A DNA stretch of 46,303 nt from positions 1 to 46,303 of the forward strand of contig JALSPK010000062.1 of assembly GCA_026986005.1 (NCBI GenBank), in the 5' to 3' direction. Below are positions 2,964 through 15,383 of the stretch, in pieces. The notes below the pieces were generated by a model, which was not told the DNA's origin, ran no database searches, and was given only the letters and a program-made list of their open reading frames with translations. Each line of letters begins with the position of its first letter. Position 1 is the first letter of the stretch. This DNA is from Saprospiraceae bacterium. Lineage in GTDB: Bacteria; Bacteroidota; Bacteroidia; Chitinophagales; Saprospiraceae. Made by a program: the position numbers and the translations under genes.

Positions 2964-3680
2964 ATGACACGAAAAGAGTTAATACCAAAAGAAAGGAGAC
3001 AGTGGAAATCAATAAAAGGGGAAAATTCTTGGACAATGTTCAAGGTAATGTCCGAGTTTGTTGATGGTTTTGAAACGATGAACAAAGTTGGCCCTAGTGT
3101 AACCGTTTTCGGTTCAGCTAGAACCAACGTTAAACACAAGTATTACCAATTAGGAAAAACTATTGCTAACAAACTAGTGGAAGAGGGTTTTGGAATCATT
3201 TCAGGAGGAGGTCCAGGTATAATGGAAGCAGCAAATAAAGGAGCCACAGAGAAAGGAGGTGCCTCAATTGGACTAAACATAGATTTACCTTTTGAACAAG
3301 AAGCAAATCCTTATATTGATTATGACAAATTAATAGATTTCAAATACTTTTTTGTAAGAAAGGTTATGTTTGTAAAATATTCTCAGGCTTTTGTTGTGAT
3401 GCCAGGAGGTTTTGGAACTTTAGATGAGCTATTTGAAGTATTAACTTTAATCCAAACAAAAAAGATAACAAGGGTTCCTGTTGTACTGGTAGGCTCTGAA
3501 TTTTGGTTAGGGTTGAGAGATTGGATTATCAACATAATGTTAAAACAAGAAAAAAATATAAGCGCTCATGATTTGGACTTAATTCCTGTACTAGACGATC
3601 CTGATGAAGTTGTAAAATACATCTCAGATTACTATTCAGGAGAAGGAGAGACAAAACTCAAGCCTAATTATGAATTGTAA
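2964..3680 (+). CDS. LOG-family (TIGR00730) nucleoside 5'-monophosphate phosphoribohydrolase-like protein
   Basis: The 238-residue protein has the two LOG signatures: a glycine-rich GGGPGIMEA loop (81-89) and PGGFGTLDE (147-155), where the conserved glutamate takes part in N-glycosidic bond hydrolysis. Characterised relatives split cytokinin ribotides or purine/pyrimidine 5'-nucleotides into base and ribose 5-phosphate. Many bacterial members were misannotated as lysine decarboxylases. The first 40 residues are a charged extension with W and K/R residues before the Rossmann-like core. It appears monocistronic: 486 bases upstream hold a miniature element and a promoter, and the next gene is 286 bases away. 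The substrate cannot be read from sequence; cytosolic, no signal peptide. Confidence 0.9.
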   Translation: MTRKELIPKERRQWKSIKGENSWTMFKVMSEFVDGFETMNKVGPSVTVFGSARTNVKHKYYQLGKTIANKLVEEGFGIISGGGPGIMEAANKGATEKGGASIGLNIDLPFEQEANPYIDYDKLIDFKYFFVRKVMFVKYSQAFVVMPGGFGTLDELFEVLTLIQTKKITRVPVVLVGSEFWLGLRDWIINIMLKQEKNISAHDLDLIPVLDDPDEVVKYISDYYSGEGETKLKPNYEL

Positions 3681-3966
3681 AACAAGACTTGTCTCAAAAT
3701 CATTTAGCATATTGATAAAAGAAGGTGATTTTTAAAATCGTGATGATTTGTGGTATTTTCCTGCATTCACTATTTAGACAGGCACTATTTAGACAATTAT
3801 AAATAGCACTCTAATTCATTTTGAAGAAACTTTTTCTATTCTTCTTTGTTAGAAATTTTAGTTATTTATAATTAATCTAACTAACGATAAGTTTTATATA
3901 TAACTCAAATGATTTTGATGATTATGCAAATAACTGCAATGAGATTTTTTATAAAAAATTATAGTC

Positions 3967-4770
3967 ATGTTAATAAATTCTGAAACAAAGATATCAGAGA
4001 TAATCAAAGAAAATGAAGATGCGATTGATACAATAGCAACGATAAACAAGCATTTTAAAAAACTAAAAAACCCAATATTAAGAAAGGTGTTGGCATCAAG
4101 AGTTACAATAGCTGATGCTGCTAAAATCGGTGGAGTATCAACAGAAATTCTACTTGACAGATTATCTTCAATAGGTTTTGATATTGAAAAGAGACAGGAT
4201 AGTGGCAAATTGGTATTAAAAAATAAAACAGACCATTTTACAGATAAAGTAATTATAGATTTTGACGCAAGACCGGAATTAGAGAAAGGGATAGACCCAT
4301 TCAAATCAATTATACGAGAATTAAAAAACCTTCCTATTGGTAAGACTTTAAAAATCATAAATACATTTGAACCATTACCATTGATAAAGATTCTTACAGA
4401 AAAAGGCTATGCTTTCAAGGTAGAAAGAGAAGATGGACTAGTTTATACTTATTTGACTAAAATCAATGCTGAGAACTCAAATAAGGATTTGCCCAAAGAA
4501 ATAATAGAAGATGATCCGATGCTTTTCGCCAAATTAGAAAAAATATTTGAAGGTAAATTGCAAGAAGTAGATGTGAGACAATTAGAAATGCCTTTACCTA
4601 TGGTAACGATTTTGCAAGAAATTGAAAATTTAAAACCCGGCAAGGCTCTATTTGTTCATCACAAAAGAATTCCACAGTTTTTGCTTTCGGAACTGGAACA
4701 AAGGGGATACAATCTAGTAGGGAAAAAAATTGATGAAACCAATACAAATCTTATAATATATAAAAAATGA
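3967..4770 (+). CDS. DUF1858 plus tandem DUF2249 domain protein
   Basis: This is a soluble 267-residue protein of three small modules. Residues 5-75 match DUF1858 (related to the N-terminal domain of ScdA/RIC di-iron repair proteins), recognised by the NKHFKKLKNPILRK and TIADAAKIGG segments. Residues 95-165 and 200-266 are two DUF2249 units, each a short alpha/beta fold starting with V-[IV]-D-x-R. Such proteins recur near nitric oxide and Fe-S maintenance genes, but no biochemical role is firmly established to my knowledge. Its TGA overlaps the ATG of the next gene (ATGA at 4767-4770), so the two are translationally coupled. A role in metal or redox handling alongside the membrane partner is an inference. 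Confidence 0.88.
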   Translation: MLINSETKISEIIKENEDAIDTIATINKHFKKLKNPILRKVLASRVTIADAAKIGGVSTEILLDRLSSIGFDIEKRQDSGKLVLKNKTDHFTDKVIIDFDARPELEKGIDPFKSIIRELKNLPIGKTLKIINTFEPLPLIKILTEKGYAFKVEREDGLVYTYLTKINAENSNKDLPKEIIEDDPMLFAKLEKIFEGKLQEVDVRQLEMPLPMVTILQEIENLKPGKALFVHHKRIPQFLLSELEQRGYNLVGKKIDETNTNLIIYKK

Positions 4771-6053
4771 TAGGTCTAAGTACGGAAAGATCGCCCTCTA
4801 CTAAGGTAGTTGCTCCTCATTTTATCGCTGCAGCTCTAGGCGTATTGATACTGTCTATTTTAGTATTTTTATCTAGTAATGATTTTATCGGCCATTTTTA
4901 CACACCACATATTTTAACAATTGTACATATCGCAGCCTTGAGTTGGGGAACCATGATAATAATTGGTTCTCTCTACCAATTAATTCCTGTAGTCTTTGAG
5001 ACAAAACTGTATAGTGAAAAATTGGCTATTTTCAATTTTTGGCTATTTGTAATAAGTATCTCTTTATTTGCATATTCTTTTTGGTCTTCAAAACTATTGG
5101 AATTAATGCCATATTCCTCAAGTTTGATATTTATTTCAGTTTGGCTATTTACCATCAACATAATACTTTCATATACCAGTGCAAATAAAAAAGATATAAG
5201 TGCAAGATTCATTATCACAGGTATATTTTGGTTGATGATGACAAGTCTATTAGGTCTTCTATTGGCTTTCAATTACAAATATGGTTTCCTTGACAATAAC
5301 AACTACAGATACCTGAAAATTCATGCTCATTTTGGTATGGTGGGATGGTTTTTACAATTAATAATGGGTGTAGGGACAACTTTAGTACCGATGTTTCTCG
5401 TTTCCCACAAATTGGATAATAACAAATTGGAAAGAGCATACTACTTACTCAATTCAGGTCTAGTGATTCTCTATCTAGATTGGCAGTTTATACAAAGTTC
5501 ATTTTTAATATACATATATTGGATTTTAATATCCTCATCAATCATCCAATATGGGTCATTTATCTACGATTCATATAAAAACAAGCTTAGAAAATTGGAT
5601 ATTGGAATGAAACACACTATGCTGGCTTTTGTCTTAATATTTTTACCGGTTATTTTTTCAGCAATTATAATCTTTTTACCTTATAATGATTTTTATTTTT
5701 TAAAAAATATAATAATATTGTATGGCGTCTCAATCTTTTTAGGCTTTTTTACAAACATGATTTTTGGGCAGACATACAAAACAATACCATTCATTATTTG
5801 GTTGAATAAATATCAAAAATTTGTTGGTAAAACAAAAACCCCGTTCCCTAGAGAATTGTACAATGAAAAAATAGCGAATTATCAATTTTACACATACAAT
5901 ATCATGTTATTAACATTTGGATTAGGGATTATAATAAACATGCTATTACTAGTACAAATAGGTGCAGCACTCCTAATACTCACAGCTTTATTATACAATA
6001 TAAATATGTTCAAAATTATTTTTGACCACAATAAAATAAATATTGATAAGTAA
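4767..6053 (+). CDS. Multi-pass membrane protein resembling heme-copper oxidase subunit I / NnrS-type proteins
   Basis: The 428-residue protein has about twelve hydrophobic segments. Histidines cluster in two places: H43, H48 and H54 before and in the second segment, and H186 and H188 in a HAHFGMVGW motif at the start of the sixth. The glycine-rich GSLYQLIPV and GVGTTLVPMF segments that follow are typical of heme-binding relatives of cytochrome oxidase subunit I. I do not see the tandem HH that helps bind CuB, so classical oxygen or NO reductase activity is doubtful. A heme-binding or NO-sensing/handling membrane protein is more likely. It starts inside the stop codon of the DUF2249 gene, with an MIP18-type gene 11 bases downstream. 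Membrane topology is clear; the precise family is less so. Confidence 0.72.
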   Translation: MIGLSTERSPSTKVVAPHFIAAALGVLILSILVFLSSNDFIGHFYTPHILTIVHIAALSWGTMIIIGSLYQLIPVVFETKLYSEKLAIFNFWLFVISISLFAYSFWSSKLLELMPYSSSLIFISVWLFTINIILSYTSANKKDISARFIITGIFWLMMTSLLGLLLAFNYKYGFLDNNNYRYLKIHAHFGMVGWFLQLIMGVGTTLVPMFLVSHKLDNNKLERAYYLLNSGLVILYLDWQFIQSSFLIYIYWILISSSIIQYGSFIYDSYKNKLRKLDIGMKHTMLAFVLIFLPVIFSAIIIFLPYNDFYFLKNIIILYGVSIFLGFFTNMIFGQTYKTIPFIIWLNKYQKFVGKTKTPFPRELYNEKIANYQFYTYNIMLLTFGLGIIINMLLLVQIGAALLILTALLYNINMFKIIFDHNKINIDK

Positions 6054-6064
6054 TATAAAAATAA

Positions 6065-6385
6065 ATGAAAACACCTGCAGAAATAGAGAAAATAGAACAA
6101 GATGTAAGAGAGTTACTCAAATCTGTTATTGATCCTGAAGTCGAAATTAATCTCGTTGACTTAGGTTTAATTTATAATATAGATTATGACGGAGATAAAT
6201 ATTTTGATATTACGATGACACTATCAACACCGTCTTGTCCGATCGGTGATTCAATAGTCATGAGTGTTATGCAAACAGTAAATGAAGCATATCCGGGTTA
6301 TGACACAAATGTAAACCTGACTTTTGATCCTCCTTGGACACCGGATATGATTAGTGATGAAGGTAAAAAAGCTTTAAATAAATAA
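6065..6385 (+). CDS. MIP18/SufT-type (DUF59) iron-sulfur assembly factor
   Basis: This 106-residue protein is almost entirely one DUF59 domain: a DPEVEINLVDLGLIY opening (23-37) and a TPSCP motif with the single conserved cysteine C58. Relatives are SufT and the eukaryotic CIA component MIP18, which help deliver Fe-S clusters to target proteins; PaaD, involved in phenylacetate oxygenase maturation, is a more distant cousin. It is the third gene of the operon with the DUF1858/DUF2249 protein and the heme-oxidase-like protein, suggesting that the module concerns cluster-containing or heme enzymes. No suf or isc genes are nearby. Its stop is 13 bases from the stop of the convergent fabH gene, with no clear hairpin between. 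Confidence 0.9.
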   Translation: MKTPAEIEKIEQDVRELLKSVIDPEVEINLVDLGLIYNIDYDGDKYFDITMTLSTPSCPIGDSIVMSVMQTVNEAYPGYDTNVNLTFDPPWTPDMISDEGKKALNK

Positions 6386-6398
6386 AAATAAGTTTTTC

Positions 6399-7457
6399 TT
6401 ACCACCTAACCAAGGCACTACCCCATGTAAATCCACTACCAAAAGCAGCAAGCACAACTAAATCACCCTCTTTTACTCTCCCCTGCTCCAACGCCTCTGT
6501 TATTGCGATTGGAATAGATGCCGCAGTTGTATTGCCGTACTTCTGTATATTATTGAACATTTGATCATCTCTTAAATGAAGCAATTTTTGAACGAACTGA
6601 CTTATTCTCAAGTTAGCTTGATGTGGTATTACCAAATTCACATCATTTGTGGTATAGCCTGCAGTATCCAACGCTTTCTTAATCACTTCCGGAAACTTTC
6701 TCACAGCTGTCTTAAAAACAGTTTGTCCTTCCATAAATGGATAAATTAAAGAATCTTCCATCATTTTATCAGTCACCAAGACAAATGGATGATCTGTTGA
6801 AACATCATAACCTCCTTCTTTGTGATCCTCATCATAGTATCCACCGTGCATTCCGGGATTTTTTGCAGAAAGTATCTCTGCCTGCGACCCGTCAGAATGA
6901 ATATGTGTCGTTAGAATACCTTTATCTTTGTCGGTTGGTTGTAAGACTACAGCTCCTGCACCATCTCCAAATAGTACACTTATTCCCCTTCCCCTCGTTG
7001 ATATATCAATCCCACCGGAATGATATTCAGCTCCGACTAACAAAATATTTTTATACTTTCCTGTTTTTATAAATTGATCTGCCACTTCAAGACCATAGAC
7101 AAATCCACTACACTGATTTCTGATATCTAAAGCCGGAATCTCCGTTTTAGTTATCCCCAAATGCCTTTGGAGCATCACTCCATTTCCTGGAAAGAAAAAA
7201 TCAGGACTAAGAGTTGCGAAAATTATAAAATCTATATCTTCTGCTTCTATCCCAGCCATTTTTATTGCATCTTTTGATGCCTTTGCTGCCATCGTAGAAC
7301 TAGTCTCTTCCCCTCTACGCAACCAATGTCGTTCCTCAATTCCTGTTCTTTCCCTGATCCATTGATCTGAAGTCTCCATCAATTTTTCCAAATCTTGGTT
7401 TGTTACCACTTTTTCAGGGATAAACTTACCTGCTCCTGCTATTTTAGTATTATACAT
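6399..7457 (-). CDS. fabH: 3-oxoacyl-[acyl-carrier-protein] synthase III (KAS III, FabH type)
   Basis: It condenses an acyl-CoA primer with malonyl-ACP to start fatty acid synthesis in the cytosol. The Cys-His-Asn triad is intact: C116 in NQCSGF, H279 in IPHQAN and N309 in KYGNTTAAS. The N-terminal GAGKFIPEKVVTN and the DQWIRERTGIEER segment are standard for the family. At 352 residues it is slightly longer than E. coli FabH (317), mainly through an insertion around residues 195-235. It is the last gene of a minus-strand run after the TolC and adaptor genes, with a 96-base gap that may hold its own promoter. It could instead be a paralogue used for a specialised lipid, because plsX and rpmF, frequent fabH neighbours, are absent. 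Confidence 0.93.
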   Translation of the reverse strand: MYNTKIAGAGKFIPEKVVTNQDLEKLMETSDQWIRERTGIEERHWLRRGEETSSTMAAKASKDAIKMAGIEAEDIDFIIFATLSPDFFFPGNGVMLQRHLGITKTEIPALDIRNQCSGFVYGLEVADQFIKTGKYKNILLVGAEYHSGGIDISTRGRGISVLFGDGAGAVVLQPTDKDKGILTTHIHSDGSQAEILSAKNPGMHGGYYDEDHKEGGYDVSTDHPFVLVTDKMMEDSLIYPFMEGQTVFKTAVRKFPEVIKKALDTAGYTTNDVNLVIPHQANLRISQFVQKLLHLRDDQMFNNIQKYGNTTAASIPIAITEALEQGRVKEGDLVVLAAFGSGFTWGSALVRW

Positions 7458-10955: not shown

Positions 10956-13900
10956 ATGAAATATTTGTTTTACAATACAAAAAGAACGAAAATGAAAAAA
11001 ATTGAACTTAATTTAATTAGTTTTTTGTCAATACTATTATTGATGTTTGTTATACAAACCGGATCAGCAAAAAGCAATAGTGAACTAAATCTCAATTCAA
11101 CTATAGCTTGTAATGATACTGTAGAAATCTCAATGGGCGTAAATTGCCAGGCAACAGTAAGTCCTGATCAACTATTAGAAGGAAATTATCCTGATTATGG
11201 GATATTTACCGTAAATATAATAGATCAAAATGGTCTTTCTATAGGAGACAACCTAACTTCAGACAATGTGAGCTTCAATTTATCAGCTGAAGTATATGAT
11301 ACTGTGTCTACAAATAGGTGCTGGAGTACGATTAGAGTTGTTGACAAACTCGCTCCACCTATAGAGTGTAGTGACATTTATACTACATGTTACAAGGAAC
11401 CCGTTCCAGGTTCTCTTACCCCTCACAATTACAGATTTGCTTTTGATCAAAAAGCTAAAATCCCGGATAATGATACTTTAAAATATCAAATGATTGTTGG
11501 AAATATCCCCGGAGCATTGATTACTGACATGAATGTAGCAATAAATATATTTCACCAAAGGCTTCTCGATTTGGAAGCATTTTTAGTCTCACCTACAGGT
11601 GATACGGTAAAACTATTTGGCAACCTAACATGTGGAAATGCCAATATGGATATTGAACTTGATGACTCTGCAGCTAATAGTGCAGCAGATTTATCTGTAG
11701 CATGCTCTATAAACGACCCAGCTATAGAAGGTGAATTCAAACCTTCGGAAAATTTATCAACATTTAACAACCAATCACCTTCAGGAATATGGATACTTAA
11801 TGTCATAGACAAAAATGCAGGTATGGTAGGGGCTTTGCAACATGTAGACTTGCTAATTAAACAAAACCATGGTTTTATCAACTTCCCAATACCAAATACT
11901 GCCTCTAACCCTGTTCAAGTATACGGAGTGGAAAATACTTATAGAGTTGTTAGTGGTTTTGATCCATGCGGTGAGGTGATACTTTCATACACCGATTCTC
12001 TCAAGTCATTTGATTGTACTTCAAATTACTCCGGTATAATAGAAAGAGAATGGCACGCTGAAGATGAATCCGGTAATATCTCAACTTGTACACAATATAT
12101 ATATATAATAAGGACAGGGACTGCTTTTTTAGAGTTTCCTCACAACTATGACAATATAGATTATGATGCACTTTCCTGTAATAATCCGGATGCATTCACA
12201 GGTGAACCTGGAACTGAATTATGTAATATGGTGACTGTTTCATTTACCGATGACACTATTAGGATTTGTTCGGGTTCATATAAAATATTAAGACATTGGA
12301 AAATATCTGAAATGTGTTCAAATGAGGTAATTGAACATGATCAAGTGATTGCTGTTATGGATACAGAAGGACCACTTATGGCCAAACTATCCAATTTCAC
12401 AATGGAAGCAAAGTCTCTAGAGTGCTCCGCAGATATTGATGTTACATTTCCTGAAATACTAAGTGATTGTTCGGATTTTGATAAAATGATATTCGATGTA
12501 GGATATCAGATTCTTGATGCTTCTGGTAACCCTACTACCTCAGAATTACTACGAGATAACTTAACACATTCAGGCAATGTTTACACACTTAAAGATGCTC
12601 CAATAGGCAAAGTGAAATTCACATACACAGTAACGGATGACTGTGGAAACAGCTCTTCAAGGTCAAATACGGTAACTATTTATGATAATTCTGCCCCAAC
12701 AGCAGTATGTGATCAACATACTCAAATCGTAATTGGAACTGATGGCGTCGCTAAAGCACCGGCTATCGTATTTGATGACGGTAGTAATGATAACTGTTCC
12801 GACATCACTTTTAAGGTCAGAAGAATGGATGCAAAGTGTGATTATAATGATATAAATTTCAGAGACACTATCTCATTTTGTTGCGCTGATGTAAATACAA
12901 CACAAATGGTAGTACTACAGGTAGAAGATGAATCGGGTCTGAAAAATTCATGCATGGTAGAGGTAAATATAATAGATAAGATTCCACCGGCAATTAAATG
13001 CCCCAAAAATATATCAATTGAATGTACTGATGATTACTTGAATCAGGACTTGACAGGATATGCAAAAGCATATGACAATTGCGAAATTGATACCTTTTAC
13101 CACAATGATATAGTAAAAATCAATCAATGTAATGTTGGTTATGTGATAAGAACATGGCATGCAAAGGATAAAACAGGGTTTTGGGCTCAACCTTGTGAAC
13201 AAAGAATAAATATCAATGATTCATATAAATTCAAATTTAAAGGATCTGATATTCATTGGCCGACTAATAAGACATACACAAATTGTGTAGAAAACTTTGA
13301 CACATCTATAACCGGTTCTGTAACTTTCAGTAATGAAGATTTTTGTAGTATGGTTGCATCTAGATTTAAGGATGACACCTTCAAAGTTGTTGACAATGCT
13401 TGCCTAAAGATATTGAGACATTGGGAAGTGATAGACTGGTGTAATTTTGACATTGATCCTCAAGGAAGTACTTGGACTCACACACAGGTAATCATGTTGC
13501 AAAATGAAGTGGCTCCGACATTTGACACTGAATGTAAAGACACAACATTCTGCACTTACGGAAAATGCCGAGGATTAGTTGACTACAAGAAAACAGCATC
13601 CGATGATTGCACTTTAGATCCAAATGATTTACTTTGGTCTTATAAAATTGATATAGACAATGACGGAACATGGGATTTAGGACCTTTTGAATCTAACCAT
13701 ATTTACAGAGTATTTGACAACGGAACATATAGAGTAGCCTGGTCAGTTGAAGATGGATGTGGAAACATAAGTACTTGTGAAGAAACATTCACAGTAAAAG
13801 ATTGTAAAAAGCCAACACCTCTTTGCATTACCGAACTTACAACTGTGGTAATGAATTATGTGGGAATGGTAACAATTTGCGCTAAAGATTTTAATTTGGG

Positions 13901-15383
13901 AACTAACTGTTATAATTGCAATACCGGTTCTTACGATAATTGTACACCAAAAGATGAATTGAAATATTCTTTTTCTGAAGATATAGCAGACTCTTGTACA
14001 ACTTATACTTGTGATAGCATCCCTAACGGTGTACAAATTCAGAAAAAACTAAAAATGTGGGTAACAGATAATGCAGGAAACCAAGATTACTGTACCGTTT
14101 TCATCAATCTTGAAGACAACCTTGGAAATGCTTGTAAAGATACTACTGTGGGATCAATTGTTTATGGATTTGTCCATAATCCTCAAAATACTACATTACA
14201 AAATATTGAGCTAAAACTAAAGACTAATGAAAATGAAAAAATTGCTATTACTAATGCCGACGGTCGATATGAATTTAATAATCTTGCCGAGGATGAGAGT
14301 TATAGATTGGAATCCAATATGGATACTAGATACCTGTTGGGAGTAACTACGCTTGATATTGTCTTGATTCAAAAGCATTTGCTAGGAATCAAACATTTCA
14401 CAAAGCCTTATCAATACATTGCGGCTGATGTCAACAACTCACAATCAATAACCGCAAGTGATATTTTGAATATCCGAAAACTTATACTGGGAGTGACCAA
14501 TGATTTCAATGGAGAATCAAAATCTTGGGCTGTAGTTAAAGAAAGTGATAATATTAATAATAATAACGATATCCTTCATACCCAATACAATAAAATTGTT
14601 ATTGACAAATCATCATTTGATAAAAACGTAAGTCTTGTAGGTATCAAAATGGGTGATATAAATGGAAGTAGCGATAAAACTATCAAAGATGAATTGATAC
14701 CAAGAAGTACTAAAAGCACTACTCTGCTAGCAAAAGAAACGGCATTTGATAAAAACGAAATAGTGTATGCAGAGTTTGATATAGATCAGCTAAGCGATTT
14801 TGTAGGTGGTCAATTTACCCTTAATTTTAATTCAGAGAACTTAGTATTTGATGAATTGGTACTCGACAATGAAGTGGTAGACAATAATAATTTTGGTCTT
14901 ACAAATGTAAAAAATGGAAAAATAACATTTAGCTGGGTAAAACCAAGTACGATGACAGTTAATCAATCTCAACTATTCAAAGTCAAATTTAAAGCTAAGA
15001 ATAATGGAAAATTATCATCAAACATCTGGCTAAGTAATGATATCACAACGATTGAAGCTTACGATACCGATCTAGAAATAATGGGCATTAAGCTTTTATT
15101 CAGAGATAATACGGAAGAAAACGGAAATTATGCGCTATATCAAAATATCCCAAATCCATTCTCTGGTGAAACAACAGTATTGTTTGATTTACCTTCAAAC
15201 CAAAAAGCTACATTATCTTTTTATGATGTGACCGGCAGAAAAATAAATGAAGTTTCTAAAGTCTTCAGTAAAGGTAGAAATTCTGTTACTTTATCATTTG
15301 ATAAAAAAATAACAGGTATAATTTACTACACTCTTGAGACGGATGGATTCACAAAAACAAAGAAAATGATAAATCTAAAATAG
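10956..15383 (+). CDS. Large secreted type IX cargo protein with P-domain, cysteine-rich repeats, dockerin-like and cohesin-like regions
   Basis: The 1475-residue protein has a signal peptide that fits better from the internal Met13 (10992; MKKIELNLISF, hydrophobic to TGSA at about residue 38). A Saprospiraceae-type opening (ACNDTVEISMGVNCQATVSP) precedes a proprotein convertase P-domain (about 175-305). A long array of HYR-like, cysteine-paired units follows (about 310-1110) with recurring VTDDCGN/VEDGCGN motifs. Residues 1110-1240 combine a carboxypeptidase-regulatory-like fold with two dockerin-like calcium loops (TTLDIVLIQKHLLG and ADVNNSQSITASDILNIRKLILG). About 1262-1385 is a cohesin-like sandwich. 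The last about 85 residues (from YQNIPNPFSGET) are the type A sorting domain cleaved on type IX export. No catalytic domain is seen, so surface adhesion or a structural role is likely. It stands alone and ends at a bidirectional terminator. Confidence 0.92.
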   Translation: MKYLFYNTKRTKMKKIELNLISFLSILLLMFVIQTGSAKSNSELNLNSTIACNDTVEISMGVNCQATVSPDQLLEGNYPDYGIFTVNIIDQNGLSIGDNLTSDNVSFNLSAEVYDTVSTNRCWSTIRVVDKLAPPIECSDIYTTCYKEPVPGSLTPHNYRFAFDQKAKIPDNDTLKYQMIVGNIPGALITDMNVAINIFHQRLLDLEAFLVSPTGDTVKLFGNLTCGNANMDIELDDSAANSAADLSVACSINDPAIEGEFKPSENLSTFNNQSPSGIWILNVIDKNAGMVGALQHVDLLIKQNHGFINFPIPNTASNPVQVYGVENTYRVVSGFDPCGEVILSYTDSLKSFDCTSNYSGIIEREWHAEDESGNISTCTQYIYIIRTGTAFLEFPHNYDNIDYDALSCNNPDAFTGEPGTELCNMVTVSFTDDTIRICSGSYKILRHWKISEMCSNEVIEHDQVIAVMDTEGPLMAKLSNFTMEAKSLECSADIDVTFPEILSDCSDFDKMIFDVGYQILDASGNPTTSELLRDNLTHSGNVYTLKDAPIGKVKFTYTVTDDCGNSSSRSNTVTIYDNSAPTAVCDQHTQIVIGTDGVAKAPAIVFDDGSNDNCSDITFKVRRMDAKCDYNDINFRDTISFCCADVNTTQMVVLQVEDESGLKNSCMVEVNIIDKIPPAIKCPKNISIECTDDYLNQDLTGYAKAYDNCEIDTFYHNDIVKINQCNVGYVIRTWHAKDKTGFWAQPCEQRININDSYKFKFKGSDIHWPTNKTYTNCVENFDTSITGSVTFSNEDFCSMVASRFKDDTFKVVDNACLKILRHWEVIDWCNFDIDPQGSTWTHTQVIMLQNEVAPTFDTECKDTTFCTYGKCRGLVDYKKTASDDCTLDPNDLLWSYKIDIDNDGTWDLGPFESNHIYRVFDNGTYRVAWSVEDGCGNISTCEETFTVKDCKKPTPLCITELTTVVMNYVGMVTICAKDFNLGTNCYNCNTGSYDNCTPKDELKYSFSEDIADSCTTYTCDSIPNGVQIQKKLKMWVTDNAGNQDYCTVFINLEDNLGNACKDTTVGSIVYGFVHNPQNTTLQNIELKLKTNENEKIAITNADGRYEFNNLAEDESYRLESNMDTRYLLGVTTLDIVLIQKHLLGIKHFTKPYQYIAADVNNSQSITASDILNIRKLILGVTNDFNGESKSWAVVKESDNINNNNDILHTQYNKIVIDKSSFDKNVSLVGIKMGDINGSSDKTIKDELIPRSTKSTTLLAKETAFDKNEIVYAEFDIDQLSDFVGGQFTLNFNSENLVFDELVLDNEVVDNNNFGLTNVKNGKITFSWVKPSTMTVNQSQLFKVKFKAKNNGKLSSNIWLSNDITTIEAYDTDLEIMGIKLLFRDNTEENGNYALYQNIPNPFSGETTVLFDLPSNQKATLSFYDVTGRKINEVSKVFSKGRNSVTLSFDKKITGIIYYTLETDGFTKTKKMINLK

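Follow-up and report, generated by a model that had tools for sequence, protein, structure and literature searches.

The window analysed here, a 46,303-nucleotide stretch of a Saprospiraceae genome (GenBank assembly GCA_026986005.1, contig JALSPK010000062.1, positions 1 to 46,303), carries three adjacent genes for a DrpB-like DUF1858/DUF2249 protein (gene 1), a polytopic membrane protein (gene 2) and a small putative iron-sulfur (Fe-S) factor of the PF01883 family (gene 3), raising the question of what purpose such a trio serves. An earlier note, made from the sequence alone, described a tight operon, and this description holds: all three open reading frames lie on the forward strand, with an ATGA overlap between genes 1 and 2 and a gap of 11 bases (6054–6064) between genes 2 and 3. 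The trio exists as described, occurs widely and goes together with nitrogen-oxide (N-oxide) respiration. The reading tentatively preferred here, with a confidence just short of even, is that it forms an accessory module of N-oxide respiration which maintains the function of Fe-S enzymes and possibly of other metal enzymes.

Conservation was followed in two samples. In a class sample of 247 genomes, 60 matched the membrane protein at E <= 1e-10; 22 of these, with a match confined to a short CcoN-like stretch, were dropped, and the remaining 38 full-length positives include the window's own genome and one genome (G128) in which the locus is split across two contigs. The second sample, termed the named loci, was taken from a scan of genome contigs in which at least 493 relatives were confirmed; it comprises the best 80 of them and is skewed to the nearest kin of the window. 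Record titles in it refer to Bacteroidota groups, Melioribacteraceae, Chlorobiota, Calditrichota and Neomarinimicrobiota, and the closest relative among the matches listed, 85% identical, is titled Saprospiraceae. At least six loci are common to both samples (L072, L074, L076, L078, L091 and L104 being the same as L122, L121, L120, L125, L124 and L123). Every one of the 80 named loci has a DrpB-like gene upstream of the membrane gene and in the same orientation (within 400 bases in 79, at 496 in one), and a PF01883 gene lies downstream in 74, within 400 bases in 71 and, with an intervening gene, at 552–1280 bases in three. The other six comprise three loci that end at a contig edge (L064, L097 and L107) and three that lack the gene (L061, L098 and L106). 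When the window's own genome is set aside, all 37 remaining class loci have the DrpB-like gene and 35 have the PF01883 gene; that of G128 is on the second contig (L157) and G064 has none. The trio is complete in 29 of 30 class loci (L003–L032, own included), L013 being without the PF01883 gene. The trio that the earlier note had proposed to look for in other genomes is conserved there, far beyond chance.

All 38 positive class genomes encode at least one of NarG, NirK, NosZ and nitric oxide (NO) reductase of the c/qNOR type, versus 65 of the 209 genomes without the membrane gene (Fisher p 3e-17, kinship ignored; NapA left out of the count). Individually, the frequencies in positives and negatives are 32/38 versus 52/209 for NosZ, 18/38 versus 13/209 for NarG, 11/38 versus 12/209 for c/qNOR and 9/38 versus 13/209 for NirK. 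The c/qNOR count takes matches of 43–49% identity, or frames of about 600 residues or more, together with one 192-residue fragment (G050); 35 genomes with matches of 439–502 residues at 22–28% identity stand outside it, and when these are added any NO reductase is found in 24/38 versus 27/209. Six genomes below the curated cut-off are included for NirK and one for NarG. Twenty positives are without NarG at E <= 1e-100, and among these NapA occurs only in the own genome, so that 19 are without both at these thresholds; NapA was found in just two of the 247 class genomes (the own genome and G228).

Neighbouring gene families were named from single representatives and then counted by tblastn with those representatives. 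Of the 37 class loci (own excluded), 34 have a RIC gene no more than 5.2 kb away from the membrane gene; it was not found in L150 or L154, and L149 has only 1.1 kb of sequence upstream. For each of the 34 RIC genes, one alignment covers both a DUF2249 part and a RIC part, indicating a DUF2249-RIC fusion; the representative carries PF10006, ScdA_N and hemerythrin domains and scores 238.5 bits against TIGR03652 (cut-off 204.7). Genome-wide, RIC above the cut-off is present in 37/38 positives versus 51/209 other class genomes. An Rrf2 regulator (representative PF02082) lies within 4 kb of the membrane gene in 23 of the same 37 loci, and the other neighbour representatives are a hemerythrin and a Crp/Fnr-type protein. 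In the neighbourhood survey that the earlier note suggested, Rrf2 genes and N-oxide respiration genes thus accompany the trio in class genomes. Its appeal to RIC, NnrS and SufT contexts as signs of nitrosative or redox damage is sustained to the extent that RIC, Rrf2 and N-oxide respiration genes are found with the trio, while a single complex of the three proteins and its role in protecting or repairing metal centres are still conjecture.

A Pfam scan of gene 1 gave DUF1858 (PF08984; 42.6 bits, cut-off 32.2), DUF2249 over two stretches (PF10006; 78.6 bits, cut-off 29.5) and also TusA (35.5 bits, cut-off 28.6), with neither an ScdA_N nor a hemerythrin domain. This corrects the N-terminal kinship to ScdA/RIC repair proteins proposed earlier: the domain there is DUF1858 and not ScdA_N. 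The protein is also free of cysteine, and the candidate assignment of gene 1 as RIC was ruled out on the missing domains. The DUF1858 part (profile positions 8–73) matches 2fi0 (E 2.1e-06). In the predicted structure (predicted local distance difference test, pLDDT, 87.6; predicted template-modelling score, pTM, 0.41) the domains are confident and their arrangement is uncertain; Foldseek with this model returned zero matches at E <= 0.001, the weaker rows including TusA/SirA-like chains and 2fi0. The catalytic cysteine of TusA is absent, leaving only the TusA profile and fold similarity, and a sulfurtransferase role for DUF2249 was ruled out because gene 1 has no cysteine. Residues invariant among 40 sequences include His232 in the second DUF2249 stretch and P-x-P and M-P-x-P-M motifs.

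Gene 2 passes the Pfam threshold for COX1 (PF00115; 36.5 bits, cut-off 34.8). Its AlphaFold2 model, from 61 sequences, has a mean pLDDT of 92.0, a pTM of 0.90 and 12 helices of transmembrane (TM) length; the best Foldseek match is CcoN 3mk7 (E 2.5e-07, TM-score 0.79), and VIA-align superposes the model on the cbb3 subunit 8smr_E (Z 36.7, root-mean-square deviation 3.0 Å over 396 residues) and on two NorB proteins (Z 33.0 and 34.2). The comparison with NorB and CcoN that the earlier note recommended thus gives a predicted heme-copper-oxidase fold over the whole chain. Profile positions 32–118 match the last third of CcoN, and in hhalign residues 18–186 correspond to the N-terminal 180 residues of one NorB (probability 89.5, E 2e-06), as expected of an oxidase built from three four-helix units. 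The excess of lysine and arginine in the even loops and termini (22, versus three in the others) indicates that both termini face the cytoplasm.

The histidine pattern of gene 2 differs from that of CcoN and NorB. Of its histidines (18, 43, 48, 54, 186, 188, 214, 283 and 421), only His54 in TM2 and His186 in TM6 are conserved without exception, in the alignment of 22 sequences as in that of 61. As the earlier note had observed, the HH pair that serves CuB in TM7 of oxidases is found nowhere in the protein; in addition, TM10 (residues 309–352), which in oxidases carries two heme ligands in an HxH motif, has no histidine. In oxidases the low-spin heme is held by the TM10 histidine at position -13 and by a TM2 histidine. 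If positions are numbered backwards from a glycine that was matched by eye between the units, gene 2 has His54 at -13 and His186 at -15, and the CcoN of the own genome has the HxH residues His345 and His347 at -15 and -13 and His60 at -16; His54 is also aligned by hhalign with His53 of Ensifer NorB. The relative positions are thus near those of the oxidase pair but fall in units 1 and 2, suggesting a bis-His heme at the unit 1/2 interface. This interface is not known to hold a cofactor in oxidases, and gene 2 is inferred to carry one bis-His heme (His54/His186) there. Oxidase-homologous (HCOH) families without CuB, NnrS among them, were reportedly described by Pei et al. 2014; the three-unit families are reported to share with gene 2 the 12 TM helices, the oxidase fold, two conserved histidines and the denitrification context.

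A close relationship of gene 2 to NnrS was rejected: the Pfam scan gave no row for PF05940 at E <= 1 and hhalign with one NnrS sequence, from Ensifer, gave a probability of 0.8% (E 0.07). A 398-residue membrane protein located two genes past the membrane gene in one locus (L141:6756-7952) was likewise rejected as a close relative, with no hhalign similarity for that one sequence; it carries an HAHSHF motif and has zero matches at E <= 0.01 in Pfam and NCBIfam scans. In a 73%-identical relative, a diverged second copy of the membrane protein (L119:11284-12567) stands in tandem between the membrane and PF01883 genes, and in two Flavobacteriales loci (L066:11316-11768 and L086:6606-7055) a gene of 149–150 residues lies there.

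Gene 3 matches PF01883 (51.8 bits, cut-off 23.5), and its sole cysteine (Cys58) is invariant in 18 sequences as part of a Cys-Pro motif. Unlike established SufT/MIP18 proteins it falls below the NCBIfam cut-offs for all three of the SUF-associated, long SufT and PaaD proteins (TIGR02945, 88.1 versus 143.4 bits; TIGR03406, 83.4 versus 202.6 bits), so that MIP18/DUF59-type is the safe name; the MIP18/SufT label given earlier stands for the domain and its cysteine and not for membership in the SUF-associated or long SufT families. The DUF59 protein SufT participates in Fe-S maturation in S. aureus (PMC4982691).

A counterpart of the trio occurs in Thermus. After narI, T. thermophilus SG0.5JP17-16 has genes for an MFS transporter, a short DUF2249 protein that by position and size would be DrpA, DrpB, a 144-residue protein, a protoglobin, the membrane protein and an annotated metal-sulfur cluster assembly factor. 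This DrpB has the architecture of gene 1, DUF1858 and two DUF2249 stretches, and is 31% identical to it over the full length (E 5e-38, a single comparison); architecture and gene company together suggest that the two are orthologous. The membrane and metal-sulfur genes downstream of DrpB are a further likeness, whereas the short DUF2249, 144-residue and protoglobin genes have no place in the window, which holds the trio only. The 144-residue protein (L038:7539-7973) reaches 22.3 bits against COX1 (cut-off 34.8) and may be a lone single oxidase-like unit. Deletion of drpAB makes nar expression independent of nitrate and deletion of drpB makes it constitutive; in the double mutant NarG is made, with an activity of 90 +/- 26 versus 900 +/- 52 U (PMC6282519). 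The regulatory model of DrpA and DrpB is repeated in PMC7694296.

Membrane-protein matches extend to 76 plasmid records, all under 60% identity. Ensifer and Sinorhizobium share the order nor genes, hemN, DUF2249, membrane gene, double DUF2249, metal-sulfur factor, NnrS and nirK. In Haloprofundus the membrane gene is close to nirK and three DUF2249 genes, and on an Aliarcobacter plasmid (L037:7661-9534) a DUF2249-like gene, the membrane gene and a metal-sulfur factor lie between Tn3 and IS21 elements, suggesting that the module may be mobile. COG4309, which we take to be DUF2249, is also met in the literature. It has been suggested to be relevant to NO reductase (PMC1274295); four DUF2249 genes are induced in denitrifying H. 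mediterranei, in whose nar operon DUF2249 is annotated in an iron-sulfur carrier P-loop NTPase, and the same source cites Pei et al. 2014 for a link between DUF2249 and oxidases (PMC11218638). A DUF1858 gene, bsl7085, stands at -29.2 in the table for a Bradyrhizobium nnrR mutant (PMC6710368), and NnrS is part of an iron-responsive regulon in a source that, in the part available, has nothing on the trio (PMC9409073). The earlier description of an uncharacterised system is thus only partly apt, DrpB having been studied genetically (PMC6282519) and DUF2249/COG4309 having been tied to denitrification (PMC1274295 and PMC11218638). The membrane family and its DUF2249 link are already partly published, while the MIP18 and RIC company and the heme site look new; a statement of the trio with PF01883 or RIC was not found in a search whose coverage left out most of the subscription literature.

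The basis of the Fe-S maintenance reading is the company that the genes keep (PF01883, RIC and Rrf2), together with one mutant phenotype. The module would act while nitrate, nitrite, NO or nitrous oxide (N2O) is respired. The membrane protein would bind one b heme through His54 and His186 near the outer face and might draw electrons from the quinone pool or bind NO. DrpB could be held on its positively charged cytoplasmic face and, being free of cysteine, could serve as an adaptor for the PF01883 factor and, where present, for RIC, so that client enzymes, nitrate reductase for example, would receive new clusters or have theirs repaired; the loss of normal nar regulation in drp mutants would be a secondary effect. 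A more specific version, in which the TM2-TM6 heme passes quinol electrons to a cytoplasmic machine of DrpB, PF01883 factor and, in some cases, RIC, making a respiratory-chain-powered Fe-S complex of N-oxide respiration, is considered rather unlikely. In the preferred reading the complex, the heme, the electron flow and the cluster transfer are inferred, and several observations weigh against it. Only 16 of the 80 named loci gave a RIC match, 15 of them in an alignment that also takes in a DUF2249 part, and nine gave an Rrf2 match, counts made with one query each on contigs of which many are short; in the own genome neither RIC (at E <= 1e-10) nor a hemerythrin domain was matched, so the trio can do without RIC. 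Beyond the samples the arrangement loosens: other genes separate DrpB from the membrane gene in Thermus, the two rhizobial loci differ in order and DUF1858 is absent from the four DUF2249 proteins scanned there, the upstream Aliarcobacter gene encodes a 107-residue DUF2249-like protein under the Pfam cut-off (23.2 versus 29.5 bits), and in the incomplete gene table of the archaeal Haloprofundus locus no PF01883 gene is annotated beside the membrane gene. Finally, the Thermus authors regard DrpA and DrpB as nitrate sensors, adding that both also work at a level required for reductase maturation (PMC6282519).

This last view generalizes to signal transduction, in which nitrate, NO or redox state would be sensed by the DUF2249 proteins together with the membrane heme protein, N-oxide respiration genes would be under their control and the Fe-S factor would only load the regulator. 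The nar phenotypes of the Thermus deletions favour it, and conserved motifs in a DrpB that has no cysteine would be in keeping with a regulatory adaptor; yet the NarG of the double mutant is mostly inactive, for which the authors invoke the second role in maturation, and they saw no DNA-binding or phosphorylation motif in DrpB (PMC6282519). With 20 of 38 positives lacking NarG and NapA confined among them to the own genome, a nitrate-specific sensor is not what is conserved, but a sensor of NO or redox state may be; the explanation as a whole is judged unlikely, though not negligible. The work of Rodionov et al. and the prevalence of NosZ would instead fit a factor devoted to assembling a single enzyme, either NO reductase or N2O reductase, rather than general Fe-S maintenance, but no partner is universal (NosZ in 32 of 38, NarG in 18, c/qNOR in 11, NirK in nine). 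The catalytic subunits of NosZ and NO reductase are not Fe-S proteins, although their accessory proteins can be, and a PF01883 factor would therefore be out of place, making this improbable. Slightly more improbable still is an NnrS-like protection, in which the iron pool is shielded by the membrane heme protein through its binding of NO or of iron complexes of NO, and the other two proteins rebuild what is lost: NnrS lies within the same Ensifer and Sinorhizobium clusters and is reportedly among the oxidase-homologous families of Pei et al. 2014, but the hhalign comparison with Ensifer NnrS was not significant, and a heme with two histidine ligands would have a free site only if one of them dissociates. 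Oxidase or NO reductase activity of the membrane protein itself, which the match of its fold over the full length to cbb3 subunit I and NorB might suggest, is practically ruled out on the ligand histidines, there being no HH pair, no histidine in TM10 and just two invariant histidines.

If the trio is an Fe-S maintenance module, an orphan family of putative membrane heme proteins is now tied to genes for iron-sulfur delivery and iron-centre repair in N-oxide respirers, and the Thermus 'nitrate sensor' mutants could be reread as making an inactive enzyme. A simple prediction is one b heme with the TM2 and TM6 histidines as ligands. The trio may also be an accessory function needed by N2O-reducing Bacteroidota.

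The own genome, whose assembly is 96.9% complete in 220 contigs so that absences are not final, encodes a NapA (G000:C212:62400-65180, 1348 bits) with one sub-threshold NrfA-family stretch (66362-66619) about 1.2 kb away, a NorB homologue of 44% identity, and a NosD-family gene with two tandem NosZ-like genes (Table 1). Against TIGR04246 (cut-off 625) the second of the pair passes with 649.7 bits and the first fails with 395.5; 82 of the 84 class genomes with NosZ score at least 896 bits. NirK was not found at E <= 1e-30, NarG not at E <= 1e-100, and NirS not at all in this genome. In four class genomes, NorB-like proteins (about 24–25% identical to NorB, frames of 443–457 residues) lie within about 11 kb of the membrane gene and, judged from sequence, are possibly another NO-reductase-like family.

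Table 1. Coordinates of the trio in the window and of related genes elsewhere (genome:contig:positions).
Feature	Position	Strand	Description
Intergenic region 5' of gene 1	3681-3966	+	Expected promoter location
Gene 1, DrpB-like	3967-4770	+	267 residues; DUF1858 and two TusA-fold DUF2249 domains
Gene 2, membrane protein	4767-6053	+	428 residues; 12 TM helices; predicted heme-copper-oxidase fold
Gene 3, MIP18/DUF59 Fe-S factor	6065-6385	+	106 residues; PF01883
Tandem divergent NosZ-like genes	G000:C141:44904-49009 (L159:8773-10971 and 11004-13400)		
NorB-like proteins	G003:C1:125562-126833; G037:C131:63713-64978; G102:C28:23166-24461; G232:C6:77923-79182		

A scan of positions 3650–6450 gave promoter-like matches at chance level (22, versus 17.9 with a standard deviation of 5.4 in shuffled sequences) and no terminator (0, versus 0.9 in shuffles), and comparison by eye of the upstream region with two close relatives revealed no convincing footprint. 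Elsewhere in the window, at 10956-15383, a 1475-residue open reading frame resembles by eye a secreted repeat protein with a C-terminal sorting domain.

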